In this document: positions 13,986 through 25,252 of the stretch, piece after piece
Layout: every line of letters starts with the position of its first letter
Position numbering within the stretch: the stretch's first letter is position 1
Source: Paenibacillus dendritiformis
GTDB lineage: Bacteria; Bacillota; Bacilli; Paenibacillales; Paenibacillaceae
Length of the DNA: 64,000 nucleotides
Assembly (NCBI RefSeq): GCF_945605565.1
Contig: NZ_OX216966.1
Span: 4,766,001-4,830,000, forward strand
Direction of reading: 5' to 3'
Translations under genes and position numbers: made by a program
The notes under the pieces: model-generated
Database searches by the model: none
The model's input: the letters and a program-made list of their open reading frames with translations, nothing else
Told to the model about the DNA's origin: nothing

Positions 13986-14035
13986 AACAGAGACCAAATA
14001 AAGTAGACGTTTAAAAATCGATATGCTATGCTATC

Positions 14036-14158
14036 ATATAAATAGAAAAGGAGCCGTGCTCGAACACGACTCCAGTGCAATAGCCGCTTCAAAGGCGCTG
14101 GCTTTTATGGTGTTGGAAATAGACCGCTAACCTTTTCGCGAGGGCGGTCTATTTCTTT
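14036..14158 (+). ncRNA. Candidate type I antitoxin RNA (RatA-like arrangement)
   Basis: An AT-rich promoter-like stretch (about 14009-14040, -10 candidate TATCAT) precedes a short transcript region with no frame. It contains a perfect hairpin GGAGCCGTG...CACGACTCC-type dyad (14051-14073), a second dyad (AGCC...GGCT, about 14082-14103) and a strong terminator (14116-14155). The terminator and 3' end overlap the 3' end of the small toxin gene on the other strand, the same convergent overlap as in B. subtilis txpA/RatA. The RNA call is an inference from structure and arrangement. Confidence 0.6.
14116..14155. terminator. Bidirectional terminator shared by toxin and antitoxin transcripts
   Basis: Twelve-base perfect stem GAAATAGACCGC / GCGGTCTATTTC with a 16-base loop. 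U-rich on both strands (TTTCTTTG rightwards, TTTCC leftwards). Confidence 0.85.
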
Positions 14159-14248
14159 GTGTGCAGGTATATCAGCAGCGTCACGACAAAAATCAATAAC
14201 GCGATTCTCCATATTCCGAATTACGGATAGCGCTTTATATACACACAC
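14149..14248 (-). pseudogene. Frameshifted holin-like type I toxin gene
   Basis: GGAGGTG lies eight bases upstream of GTG 14248 and reads MCVYKALSV, the usual N-terminus of Paenibacillus/Bacillus holin-like type I toxins. Right there the frame breaks: the hydrophobic remainder FGIWRIALLIFVVTLLIYLH-TKK-TAG is in the +1 frame, ending at 14149. Loss of two bases near 14221 would explain it (expected ...SVMFG...). In the unbroken GTG frame the product would be hydrophilic and non-toxic. The ribosome site is also paired in a CTCCC/GGGAG hairpin (about 14257-14272), a typical toxin control feature. Confidence 0.65.
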
Positions 14249-14344
14249 TGGCATCACCTCCCTTACGGGAGATTAGCCGACCACCCACAAAGCCATTCTA
14301 TTGCATGGCAATTATACCGGTGAAAACCACCGAACAAAGAAACG

Positions 14345-20749: not shown

Positions 20750-22648
20750 CTAGGCCCGGCTCATCCGGTTATCGCCATGGGCGAAGAGCATCGTATGCAC
20801 TTCCTTCACCAGCTGTTCCGCCGTAAGGCCCGCCTCCTGGCGCTGCTCCTTGATGCTGCCGTGTTCTACGAAGCAATCGGGAACCCCGATAGGCTTCAAC
20901 TTGACGCCGAATACATGATGCTGCGCATAATACTCCATAATGGAGCTGCCCAAGCCTCCTGCCACGGAGCCCTCCTCCAGCACGATCATCGGCAGCTGCT
21001 CTCTGGCGAGCATGGTCAGCATCGCCTCATCCAGCGGCTTCATGAAGCGCGCATTGATGACGCGCAGCTGAATGCCTTCGCGCCGCAGCTGCTCCGCCGC
21101 TTCCTCGGCCACCTGAACCATCGGGCCGATCGCGAACACAGCGGCATGATCGCCAGGGCGTACCACTTCCCATGTCCCGATCGGAATCGGAAGCAGCTCG
21201 GCATCCAGCTCGACGCCGACACCATTCACGCGGGGGTACCGCACTGCAATCGGTCCTTCGTCGTAATCGAGCGCCGTCTTCAACATATGGCGCAGCTCGT
21301 TTTCGTCCTTCGGCATCATCAGCACAATATTCGGAATATGGCGCATAAAAGCGATATCGTACACGCCTTGATGCGTCTCTCCGTCCGGTCCGACGAACCC
21401 GGCGCGATCGATAGCGAAGATCACGTTCGCGCTCTGGCGGCAAATGTCATGCACCACCTGATCGTATGCCCGCTGCAGGAAGGTGGAGTATACCGCAAAT
21501 ACCGGCTTCATCCCTTCCATAGCCAACGCGGCGCACATCGTGGCGGCATGCTGTTCGGCGATGCCGACATCGATCATGCGCCCCGGGAAGCGCTCTGCGA
21601 ATCCGAGCAGTCCGGAGCCGCCCGGCATGGCCGGCGTAACGGCCACCACGCGATCGTCCTGCTCCGCCAGCTCGACGAGCGTCTTGCCGAACACCTCGGT
21701 GTACATCGGATTGCCTACCGCCTTCAGCACTTGTCCGGATTCTATCTTGTACGGCGAGATGCCATGCCATTTATGCGAATCGGCTTCCGCCGGCGTATAT
21801 CCTTTGCCTTTGCGGGTAACGACATGAATAAGCACCGGGCCGTTCACGCGGCTTGCTTGCTGAAAAATATCGATCAGCTTGTCAATGTCATGCCCGTCGA
21901 CGGGTCCGAAATATTTCAGCCCGAACTCTTCGAACAGCATGCCGGACACGACCAAATATTTGAAGCCGTCCTTCACCCGTTCCGCGGTCTTGGCCAGCTT
22001 GCCGCCAATCGCCGGAATCTTTTTGAGCAGCTGCTCTACTTCTTCTTTCGCCTTTAAATAGTTCCGGTCAGAGCGTATTTTGCACAAATAGTTATGTAGC
22101 GCTCCGACATTCGGGGCAATCGACATCTCATTGTCGTTCAGCACGACCATCAGATTCTTCTTCTCATGCCCGATATGATTGAGCGCCTCGAGCGCCATGC
22201 CTCCAGTTAACGCACCGTCGCCGATAACCGCGATTACCTTGTTGCTCTCGCCCTTCAAATCCCGGGAGAGCGCCATTCCCATCGCCGCGGACAGCGACGT
22301 GCTGCTGTGACCGGCTTCCCATACGTCATGCTCGCTCTCCGCGCGCTTGACGAAGCCGCACAGCCCCTTGTACTGGCGCAGCGTATCGAACCGCTCCTTG
22401 CGGCCGGTTAATATTTTATGAACGTATGCCTGATGGCCGACGTCGAATATCATTTTGTCCCGGGGACTGTCATATAAATAATGCAAGACAAGCGTAAGCT
22501 CGACGACGCCCAGGTTCGATGCCAGATGTCCTCCGGTCACCGCCAGCTTTTCAATGAGAAATTGTCGAATTTCTTCCGCCAGGACAGGCAGTTCTTCCTT
22601 CGTCAACCGCTTCAGATCGCTAGGTTGGTTAATCTGTTCGAGCAGCAC
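20750..22648 (-). CDS. dxs: 1-deoxy-D-xylulose-5-phosphate synthase
   Basis: 632 residues. Transketolase-like thiamine enzyme that joins pyruvate and glyceraldehyde 3-phosphate in the first step of the MEP isoprenoid pathway. Visible motifs: [11 protein letters not shown], the cofactor motif [16 protein letters not shown]...NDNEMSI, the pyrimidine-domain Glu in [17 protein letters not shown] and [15 protein letters not shown]. The start is GTG 22648, with GAGGGA upstream and 20 bases of overlap with the end of oapA. ispA, the next isoprenoid step represented here, lies on the other side of the OLE RNA. Confidence 0.96.
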
Positions 22649-23267
22649 GGGAATTCCCTCGCTTTCGTTGTTTCGATTTGCCGCGTTTCTTGGTGAACAA
22701 GCGGATATGGAGCTTGGTCTCCAAAAAATAGAAGCATTTGCCGATTAGTAATACAATCGATGTGGAGTAATGAATCGCAAATGACTTCCCCAACGCTTTG
22801 CCTCCGACGGTTAATGCGGATACGAGGCCGGTGAAGGTAACGCTTACCACCGTCGTCATCCATACGCTCTCCGCATTCATGGACCATAGCAAATTCGTCA
22901 CTACGATCGCCGTGGCCGAACCGCTAATCACCCCTGTCATGTCACCAATCACGTCATTGCAGAAGTTCGAGAAACGATCCGCGTTGCGCACGATATAGAT
23001 CGCTTGCTTGGCTCCGCGCACCCTCTCCGCCGCCATCGCATGGAACGGAGTCTCCTTCGCGGCTGCCGCAGCTAAGCCCATAATATCAAAAAACACTCCA
23101 ATAAGCACGAGCATCAACACGATCACCATACCGACGGCCCAGCCCGCGTTCCCCAGCATTGACGTGGAGGCAACAGACAATATGACGGCCATCGCAAAGG
23201 TGACGAAAAAAATGAATATGCTCCACTTGACGGAATGTTTGAATGAAAACTTCATTATCGCTGTCAA
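22629..23267 (-). CDS. oapA: OLE-associated membrane protein OapA
   Basis: 212 residues with about four membrane segments (15-35, 38-60, 105-128, 138-160) and a highly basic C-terminus ([20 protein letters not shown]) suited to RNA binding. OapA is the membrane partner of OLE RNA and is encoded just downstream of it in extremophilic Firmicutes, between the RNA and dxs, exactly the place here. The segment [20 protein letters not shown]...NADRF is loosely like the helix of CNNM/DUF21 magnesium transporters. Start is TTG 23267 behind AAAGGA, or an ATG 12 bases later. Identity rests on context plus topology. Confidence 0.82.
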
Positions 23268-23324
23268 CTCATCCTTTTATGAGATGTTCCCACGAACGAA
23301 CTCATTATATGTGTCTTGATAACC

Positions 23325-23979
23325 AATAATGGTTGGAGTGGTAGCTTTCTGGATAAACGCTGTGGCTTAGGTCCAGTAGGTTTTCCCAGACGCCCGCCTC
23401 CCCGTCGCCGGGCAGGCCGTTTCCAATTAAGAGCGTCTTGACGCCGTCGCCGGACGTCAGACTGGATTACCACTTAGACCACACTATAATCCCCACAAAG
23501 CCTCACAATGTGAACAGTCTAGGAGTTTTCCTCGAGCAGCCCTGAACCGACCCTTAGCCTCTTTTGCAAATCAGATTTCAAGCGGCATCCGATAGGCAGG
23601 TCTTTGGCCTAAGACCTTCGTATCTACACATCCGCTATCCCTGCAGACTCACTCAAGGCAGGCTACGCTACATACAAGCCACCCGCACGGAACGATCCGG
23701 CAAGCCGGAGAGCGTTCCGCGTGACTCGCAATATAGGTTCATACCCCAAGCCGTAATGCGGCGCGCGAGGGCGCCGTACCACGCACTTGGGCCTCCGCGG
23801 AAGCGGGGTCAACGCCCACATGCCATTGTGGATCGCCCCACAACCTTAACTCCCAGCATCAGCCCACGACTGGGCGTCGCAAGCCAACACCAGGAACTTC
23901 ATCGATGTGCCCTTTGGCGAATTTTTAGGCCCGCCTTCGGTGTCGGGAGGCCGACTAGAATACTGCACCACTCTATGTA
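23325..23979 (-). ncRNA. ole: OLE RNA (ornate large extremophilic RNA)
   Basis: About 650 bases with no credible gene, between ispA and the OapA gene, in the isoprenoid/DNA-repair operon where OLE RNA always lies. Many strong hairpins support a folded RNA, for example CGGAACG/CGTTCCG enclosing CCGG/CCGG (23686-23722), AGGTCT/AGACCT (about 23602-23621) and GGCC.CCCG/CGGG.CC near the 5' end. A promoter sits just upstream. OLE RNA forms a membrane ribonucleoprotein with OapA and helps tolerance of cold, short alcohols and magnesium stress. The 3' end is approximate. I did not match the published consensus base by base. Confidence 0.8.
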
Positions 23980-23985
23980 CGCTCT

Positions 23986-24009
23986 ATTATATCACAAAAC
24001 GGGAAAGCG
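23986..24009 (-). promoter_or_regulatory. Promoter of OLE RNA
   Basis: Extended -10 TGATATAAT on the minus strand (TATAAT at 23991-23986) with a weak -35 (TGATTC) 17 bases upstream. Predicted start near 23979. It would allow OLE RNA and the downstream genes to be transcribed independently of ispA. Confidence 0.65.
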
Positions 24010-24078: not shown

Positions 24079-24993
24079 TCAGAATTGGCGCTCCAGCAAA
24101 TAATCCGCCAGCTCGTACAGGCGCGCCGGATAAGGAAATCCGGCCTCCCTCACCGCTTGCTTGGCTTCTTCCGTCAGCCGGACGACCTCCTGCTTCGAGG
24201 CCTCCAGACCGATAAAATACGGGTAGGTCACCTTCCCGCTCTTCTCATCGCTTCCCTTCGGCTTGCCGAGCAGCCCTTCTTCGCCGGTGATGTCCAGAAT
24301 ATCGTCCTGAATCTGGAAGGCGAGGCCGAGCTTCGTCCCGAATTCGGTCAACGCGTTCAGCTGCGCTTCATTGGCCCCCGCCAGATGGGCGCCTGCGCGA
24401 AGCGCGAACACGATCAGATCGCTCGTCTTGTGAAGATGAATATATTCAAGCTGGTCCAGCGTCGTCAATCCCTGCTCACCCTGCATATCGGCGGTCTGGC
24501 CGCCCACCATCCCACGCATGCCGGCATAGACGGACAGCTCCTCGGTGATAGTCAGGGCGATCTCGGCCGAGATGCCATGACGGCGCGCACATTGCGCAAC
24601 CGTGTAGAAGGCATGGGTCAGGAGCGCATCGCCCGCCAAAATGGCGAGGGCTTCCCCGAACACCTTATGGTTAGTCGGCTTGCCCCGGCGGTAATCATCG
24701 TTATCCATCGCCGGCAGATCATCATGCACGAGGGAGTACGTATGTATCATCTCGATGGCGCAAGCCACCGGATCGGCGGCTTCCAGCGGGCCGTTCAGGC
24801 TCTCGCATGCGATGACAACACAGAGCGGCCGCAGGCGCTTGCCCCCGGCCATCAGCGAATACAGCATCGATTCCTTCAATTCGGCAGGCACCTGCCAGCC
24901 GGCGGGGAATTGAGCCGGCAGCAGCCGCTCAATCCGCGCGACGTGACGCTCCAAATAAGAAGCGAACCTTTCTTCCGCTCCGGCGTTACTCAA
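24079..24993 (-). CDS. ispA: (2E,6E)-farnesyl diphosphate synthase
   Basis: 304 residues. All-alpha prenyltransferase: first Asp-rich motif VHDDLPAMDNDDYRRG and second motif AFQIQDDILDITGE, with the KRLRP substrate loop AGGKRLRPLC. It condenses IPP with DMAPP/GPP to farnesyl diphosphate for quinones and undecaprenyl phosphate. It overlaps the end of xseB. TTG 24993 has GGGTGAT upstream; GTG 25002 is an alternative that adds three residues. The gene is separated from dxs by the OLE RNA locus. Confidence 0.94.
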   Translation of the reverse strand: MSNAGAEERFASYLERHVARIERLLPAQFPAGWQVPAELKESMLYSLMAGGKRLRPLCVVIACESLNGPLEAADPVACAIEMIHTYSLVHDDLPAMDNDDYRRGKPTNHKVFGEALAILAGDALLTHAFYTVAQCARRHGISAEIALTITEELSVYAGMRGMVGGQTADMQGEQGLTTLDQLEYIHLHKTSDLIVFALRAGAHLAGANEAQLNALTEFGTKLGLAFQIQDDILDITGEEGLLGKPKGSDEKSGKVTYPYFIGLEASKQEVVRLTEEAKQAVREAGFPYPARLYELADYLLERQF

Positions 24994-25252
24994 TCCGATC
25001 ACCCGCTTCTTCCGCTGGGAACGGCTGCCGCTTCAATTCGCCATTCTGCTCCGACAAGACCTCGATTTTGCGTTCCACCTGCTCCAACTTGCGGGCGCAT
25101 AGACCGGACAGGCCCATCCCTTCCTGGAAAAGCTCGATCGCCTGCTCCAGCGGCACATCTCCGCTCTCCAACTGCTCGACGATATGTTCGAGCTTCTCCA
25201 TTGCGGTCTCGAAGCTCATTTCCTGCATGGTAGTTTTTTCTTGATTATCCAT
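24986..25252 (-). CDS. xseB: Exodeoxyribonuclease VII small subunit
   Basis: 88 residues with the family core MSFETAMEKLEHIVEQLESGDVPLEQAIELFQEGM, a helical hairpin that binds the large subunit in several copies. Together they degrade single-stranded DNA in both directions. It starts three bases after the xseA stop and overlaps ispA, so the three genes are coupled. An ATG at codon 9 or 12 would also fit. Confidence 0.93.
   Translation of the reverse strand: MDNQEKTTMQEMSFETAMEKLEHIVEQLESGDVPLEQAIELFQEGMGLSGLCARKLEQVERKIEVLSEQNGELKRQPFPAEEAGDRIE

Follow-up and report, generated by a model that had tools for sequence, protein, structure and literature searches.

The DNA between ispA and dxs in the window (i.e., the 64,000-nt stretch of Paenibacillus DNA analyzed here) poses a two-part question: does it encode OLE, one of the largest structured bacterial RNAs, together with its protein partner OapA, and how durable is that pair among relatives? 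The preliminary description of this DNA had placed an OLE RNA between ispA and oapA, and a Rfam covariance-model search of the region bore this out, with RF01071 matching positions 23322-23987 on the minus strand at 507 bits (E 9.1e-146; gathering score, 50) from end to end of the model (1-616 of 616, not truncated). The possibility, raised at the outset, that no OLE covariance match would be found is thus decisively closed by this hit. A single copy was found in the whole 6.72-Mb one-contig genome. Full-length OLE accordingly spans 23322..23987 by the model; the RNA proper likely starts at about 23979 and runs from P1 to P1 over 23973-23336. The proposed gene order, xseA-xseB-ispA-OLE-oapA-dxs, also held (ispA and dxs named by Pfam, xseA and xseB by eye), with ispA upstream at 24079..25002 (minus strand; polyprenyl_synt, 203 bits) and dxs at 20750..22648 (minus strand; DXP_synthase_N, 418 bits), the latter overlapping oapA by 20 bases.

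A conserved protein frame across the interval had been named as the competing possibility. A same-strand frame reaching into the RNA (23264-23473) has no Pfam match, and the full-length OLE RNAs of 79 named relatives vary from 583 to 736 nt, a range ill-suited to a conserved coding frame. The window RNA shares 97.7-98.3% identity with its counterparts in five close relatives, including Paenibacillus dendritiformis and P. popilliae, with oapA dS of 0.12-0.22 to three of the five. It is therefore a further OLE of the well-studied kind, in one copy, from the P. dendritiformis neighbourhood.

Elsewhere in the window, positions 14051-14305 (minus strand) match BsrG (RF01412) at 55.2 bits against a gathering score of 55, and an overlapping stretch at 14034-14119 (plus strand) matches RatA (RF01776) below threshold (35 bits against 49). 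Such an arrangement, over 14034-14305, is that of type I toxin-antitoxin modules of the TxpA/BsrG-RatA kind, and it lies downstream of a gene that, by eye, is Spo0A-like. The toxin frame appears to be broken, as the start preceded by a good ribosome-binding site and the short hydrophobic stretch are in different frames.

To examine the architecture of the RNA, 33 OLE RNAs of named species (33 of 80 loci) were aligned with that of the window; stems were named after the published papers and their positions assigned by eye. Across P1, P3.1, P3, and P4 together, 96.6% of cells are standard pairs and 18 of 26 pairs show change on both sides. None of 500 shuffles equalled the observed values on any of five measures, and shifting the partner by one column lowered pairing to 53% or 48% in a sliding control that favours the stems, these having been written from the window sequence. 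On the minus strand, P1 joins 23967..23973 to 23342-23336 (97.5% of cells paired; 4 of 7 pairs changed on both sides), P3.1 and P3 share a 5′ strand at 23939..23953 and have 3′ strands at 23542-23537 (98.5%; 4 of 6) and 23553-23547 (91.4%; 5 of 7), respectively, and the P4 hairpin, with its A-rich loop, occupies 23916..23935 (99.5%; 5 of 6). Rfam's printed consensus structure leaves P1 and P3 unpaired, so neither was forced by that model. RNAalifold predicted 156 pairs, 81 of them changed on both sides, and added P2, which contains UCUAG (5′ strand 23955..23966, 3′ strand 23522-23514, minus strand).

In the available text of PMC12265935, P2 is one of two OapA-contact regions of OLE and the P3 stem is proposed as its membrane-crossing part. 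In all 112 RNAs compared, the P3/P3.1 5′ strand measures 13-15 nt, whereas the P8 segment ranges from 21 to 73 nt; this constancy fits a membrane-crossing stem but does not discriminate, other short segments being equally constant (one is 8 nt in all 112). As a separate matter, the OLE of Paenibacillus alkalitolerans (L070:1742-2477) carries a 43-nt insert in a domain-2 segment, which is thus 59 nt long there and 15-16 nt in 111 of the 112 aligned RNAs.

Directly upstream of P1, at 23994-23986 (minus strand), lies the extended -10 element TGATATAAT, from which a transcription start near 23979 is predicted. There is no good -35 beside it, hence its absence from the sigma-70 scan list. A loosened form, TGNTANANT, was searched for between 60 bases ahead of the model start and 22 beyond it and compared with mononucleotide shuffles; it occurs near the OLE start in 77 of 81 loci, i.e., in 19 of 19 on the Paenibacillus side (the window and L053-L070; shuffle mean 1.0, maximum 4) and in 58 of 62 others (mean 3.8, maximum 12). 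The promoter that had been noted at the expected 5′ end of the RNA is thus conserved well beyond the window; its proposed independence from ispA gains from this conservation and from Bacillus halodurans, for which the available text of PMC9723947 gives ole its own promoter together with presumed processing. Of 20 family members that lack a standard OLE (among them G026, described below), 19 retain the element between ispA and dxs (shuffle mean 2.3, maximum 6); the promoter thus likely persists once the RNA is gone and serves dxs from then on. A search for terminator-like sites found none at the 3′ end of OLE, making it likely that here, too, the RNA would be processed out of a transcript continuing into oapA and dxs.

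Immediately after OLE comes oapA (22629..23255, minus strand, from an ATG; an upstream TTG at 23267 is also open), identified by position and homology, with a CNNM-like predicted fold. Its 208-residue membrane protein is homologous to 80 named relatives, all encoded behind OLE, and is 52% identical to that of H. halodurans DSM 497 over the best segment (residues 4-189). Among 81 OapA proteins, 45 columns are conserved at 97.5% or more, and the basic C-terminal tail (residues 184-208; 22632..22706, minus strand) bears a net charge of +2 to +11 in 80. Magnesium transporters of the MpfA/CorC/CorB type combine CNNM, CBS, and CorC_HlyC domains; OapA, in contrast, stays below the CNNM cut-off (PF01595; 18.1 and 20.9 bits against 28.4) and has no CBS or CorC match in Pfam. 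The best matches to its predicted fold are the CNNM/CorB/CorC transmembrane domains, in a model built from 63 sequences (pLDDT 76); an earlier one, based on 14 close sequences, was of low quality (pLDDT 49) and was set aside. Both the sub-threshold CNNM match and the CNNM-like predicted fold fit the earlier naming of the gene ahead of dxs as oapA. Elsewhere in the genome are encoded OapB (matching PDB 7k9b, E 7.3e-26) and OapC (matching YbxF 3v7e, E 3.1e-22).

The system hence resembles that of H. halodurans in matching the whole OLE model, with stems P1-P4, domain 2, and an extended -10 promoter, in its placement between ispA and oapA-dxs, and in the presence of OapB and OapC in the genome. 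Published phenotypes of the H. halodurans system concern ethanol, cold, and magnesium, and ole can be deleted there. The window RNA differs from the 628-nt RNA of H. halodurans DSM 497 in being 666 nt by model span, largely through a longer P8; OapA, at the stated 52% identity, has a longer basic tail; and the genome encodes three MpfA-type proteins. These three (CNNM + CBS + CorC_HlyC; L002-L004, at G000:C1:2495974, 3981699, and 3480642), alongside a full OLE ribonucleoprotein, run contrary to a published trend of at most one MpfA-type protein beside OLE, as far as the available text states it. A CNNM tally, unbalanced by kinship and with CBS and CorC domains checked for the window genome's three proteins only, gave 1-3 above-cut-off proteins per genome with full OLE (n = 11), 2 and 3 in two reduced-OLE genomes, and 2-6 in 21 OLE-lacking genomes (G011 counting two likely halves of one gene). 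The notion that full OLE goes with fewer MpfA-type proteins was not pressed, given the overlap between groups and the unbalanced sample.

As for the durability of the pair, OLE was found in 13 of 245 sampled genomes of the family, and OapA in the same 13; the window's genus accounts for 10 (of 19 genomes) and a second genus for 2 (of 3), with one further genome beyond these. A sample of 398 genomes from across the phylum had OLE in 284. When named genomes were scanned for OapA and the best 80 of 317 relatives kept, OLE was present at all 80 loci, with a full-length RNA at 79. In print, OLE and OapA are said to be perhaps never found one without the other. Several short or split phylum copies were not counted as deletions, since they lie at or near contig ends (G359, G394, G425, G456, G475, and G506) or contain runs of N (G546). 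OLE is split at contig ends in six phylum-sample genomes (L165-L168, L170-L171, and L174-L177); possibly, its strong hairpins hinder assembly. OLE scores in G473, G626, and G258 were 282, 275, and 170 bits, and each locus has an OapA-like frame, weak in G258 (47 bits). In the window's genus, the ispA-dxs gap of four genomes without OLE (G161, G024, G106, and G069) is about 350 nt long; its sequences resemble one another and gave no OLE match.

Three genomes of the family hold intermediate states. In Paenibacillus sp. NAIST15-1 (G138/L059; its two records are the same assembly), an OLE RNA of 371 nt, still above the gathering score at 237.7 bits, stands beside an open oapA. By blastn and cmscan alignment, it is missing 297 nt corresponding to 23610..23906 (minus strand). 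The gap takes out P5 to P8 as well as the 5′ half of P9, so that a domain 1 (P5-P9) is not to be found in this RNA; in blastn, window-RNA pieces 13-81 and 379-634 lie next to each other in the copy (L016). The missing stretch includes the palindrome CAUCGAUG, which, by our own placing, is taken to be the P4a OapA site named in the accessible part of PMC12265935. The promoter, P1-P4, P3, and domain 2 are retained. Conservation reaches 97% or more in 147 of the remaining columns, and NAIST15-1 departs from it in one; by eye, a C faces U there, in a domain-2 helix where the other 34 RNAs all have a standard pair. Its OapA has an I103N change unique among the 81 proteins, as is the product of a frameshift that swaps the basic tail for one of net charge 0, the lowest of all (the rest being +2 to +11).

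In G040, the first ~105 nt of OLE are left, joined directly to the ATG of an open oapA; all 54 covered columns conserved at 97% or more are intact. The purine-rich stretch fit for ribosome binding before oapA in P. terrigena is absent in G040, and its OapA carries R94W, at a position occupied by R in 67 and by K in 14 of the 81 others. In G026, the promoter and the first ~36 nt of OLE (23.4 bits by Infernal, below the gathering score) are followed by oapA fragments. Each reduced RNA is known from one assembly. In a FastTree tree of 39 Dxs proteins, several deeper nodes of which are weak, P. terrigena, which has full OLE, is sister to G040 (support 0.995), G026 falls outside these two (1.0), and P. 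alvei is the closest relative of NAIST15-1 in the tree, as its sister (1.0). Provided that this single-gene tree holds, there were at least three separate losses. A literature search on OLE RNA and Paenibacillus found no paper, and one on ole/oapA loss found no such deletions in the titles and abstract starts of the top matches listed.

Are these RNAs dying, or do they still work? The dN/dS of OapA is 0.056 from NAIST15-1 to P. alvei and 0.057 from G040 to P. terrigena, within the 0.043-0.151 of the eight pairs computed between species that each have a full RNA, with saturated dS values excluded. Most derived changes in oapA are at third codon positions (12 of 14 in NAIST15-1; 13 of 17 in G040). 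In the remaining RNA, 11 derived changes lie on the NAIST15-1 branch and 8 on that of P. alvei, with 5 unresolved. At a dS of 0.51 between the two species, roughly 90 changes in 371 nt would be expected, by our estimate, under neutrality over the whole branch; the 11 observed thus mean either a recent deletion or continuing constraint on the remnant. Judged from sequence, the reduced lineages give no sign of long neutral decay, and either their losses would be recent or the remnants still work. With the lesions in oapA of both NAIST15-1 and G040, recent loss is in our judgement the better reading, each lineage being represented by one assembly.

We are highly confident in the following account. 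The window encodes a full-length OLE that would be transcribed from a predicted extended -10 promoter of its own. Together with OapA, OapB, and OapC, the RNA would form a complex that is bound to the membrane and acts in stress responses, like the one published for Halalkalibacterium halodurans, putatively with RNA dimerization, membrane insertion, and a corresponding physiological role. The OLE-oapA pair, rare in the family, is likely undergoing repeated loss, with three species caught in intermediate states. The order of loss was likely RNA before oapA, i.e., the RNA would break first and oapA would follow, the RNA being already cut down in both species with an open oapA. Such losses would perhaps be tolerated because these genomes also carry MpfA-type transporters.

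Other accounts fare less well. That the stretch is a mere long leader or promoter region of oapA-dxs, with no RNA gene, would suit both the missing terminator and the extended -10 of OLE-lacking relatives, where the promoter likely also serves dxs; the end-to-end model match and the covariation, P1 included, which ties both ends of the RNA, nevertheless refute a leader-only account, and we give it virtually no credence. The patchy presence in 13 of 245 family genomes might instead reflect horizontal gain in a few Paenibacillus lineages rather than loss in the rest. This is very improbable, as the pair occupies the same ispA-dxs place in all 13 and in distant loci with checkable flanks, G026 holds a relic of both genes at that very place, and OLE is common across the phylum (284 of 398).

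A different challenge is that the RNAs of NAIST15-1 and G040 are working minimal OLEs, the P1-P4 part, alone or together with domain 2, being all that OapA requires. Their intact conserved columns (146 of 147 and 54 of 54), the retained promoter, P1-P4, P3, and domain 2 of NAIST15-1, and the low dN/dS of both OapA proteins are what one would expect of such RNAs. We nonetheless consider this unlikely in view of the mismatched domain-2 pair, frameshifted tail, and I103N of NAIST15-1, the lost ribosome-binding site and the tryptophan of G040 where R or K is otherwise invariant, and the full-length RNA at 79 of 80 named loci. In its boldest form, NAIST15-1 would run a natural minimal OLE from which the cytoplasmic dimer domain is gone and in which P1-P4, the P3 stem, and domain 2 act with OapA. 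Although a long shot, this would place the indispensable activity of OLE in domain 2, the structurally unresolved part, and would explain the loss of the basic OapA tail in the same lineage.

The reduced copies can be compared with shortened OLEs already published. Variants 1 and 2 (TANB77 and RF39 clades; available text of PMC11332333) are likewise shortened RNAs in living lineages that keep OapA. There, as described in that text, parts of P7-P9 are shortened or lacking, whereas NAIST15-1 is also without P5 and P6 and G040 without nearly everything; unlike those variants, both occur beside full-length sister species.

Ultimately, what the present study adds is this erosion series. It suggests that, of the two, the RNA is the first to go, and it conflicts with the published view, if strictly read, that OLE and OapA might never be found separately. 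Set against that published expectation, an open oapA beside a gutted RNA makes these species natural tests of it, and NAIST15-1 and G040 thus provide natural deletions for asking what role domain 1 plays and whether OapA works alone.
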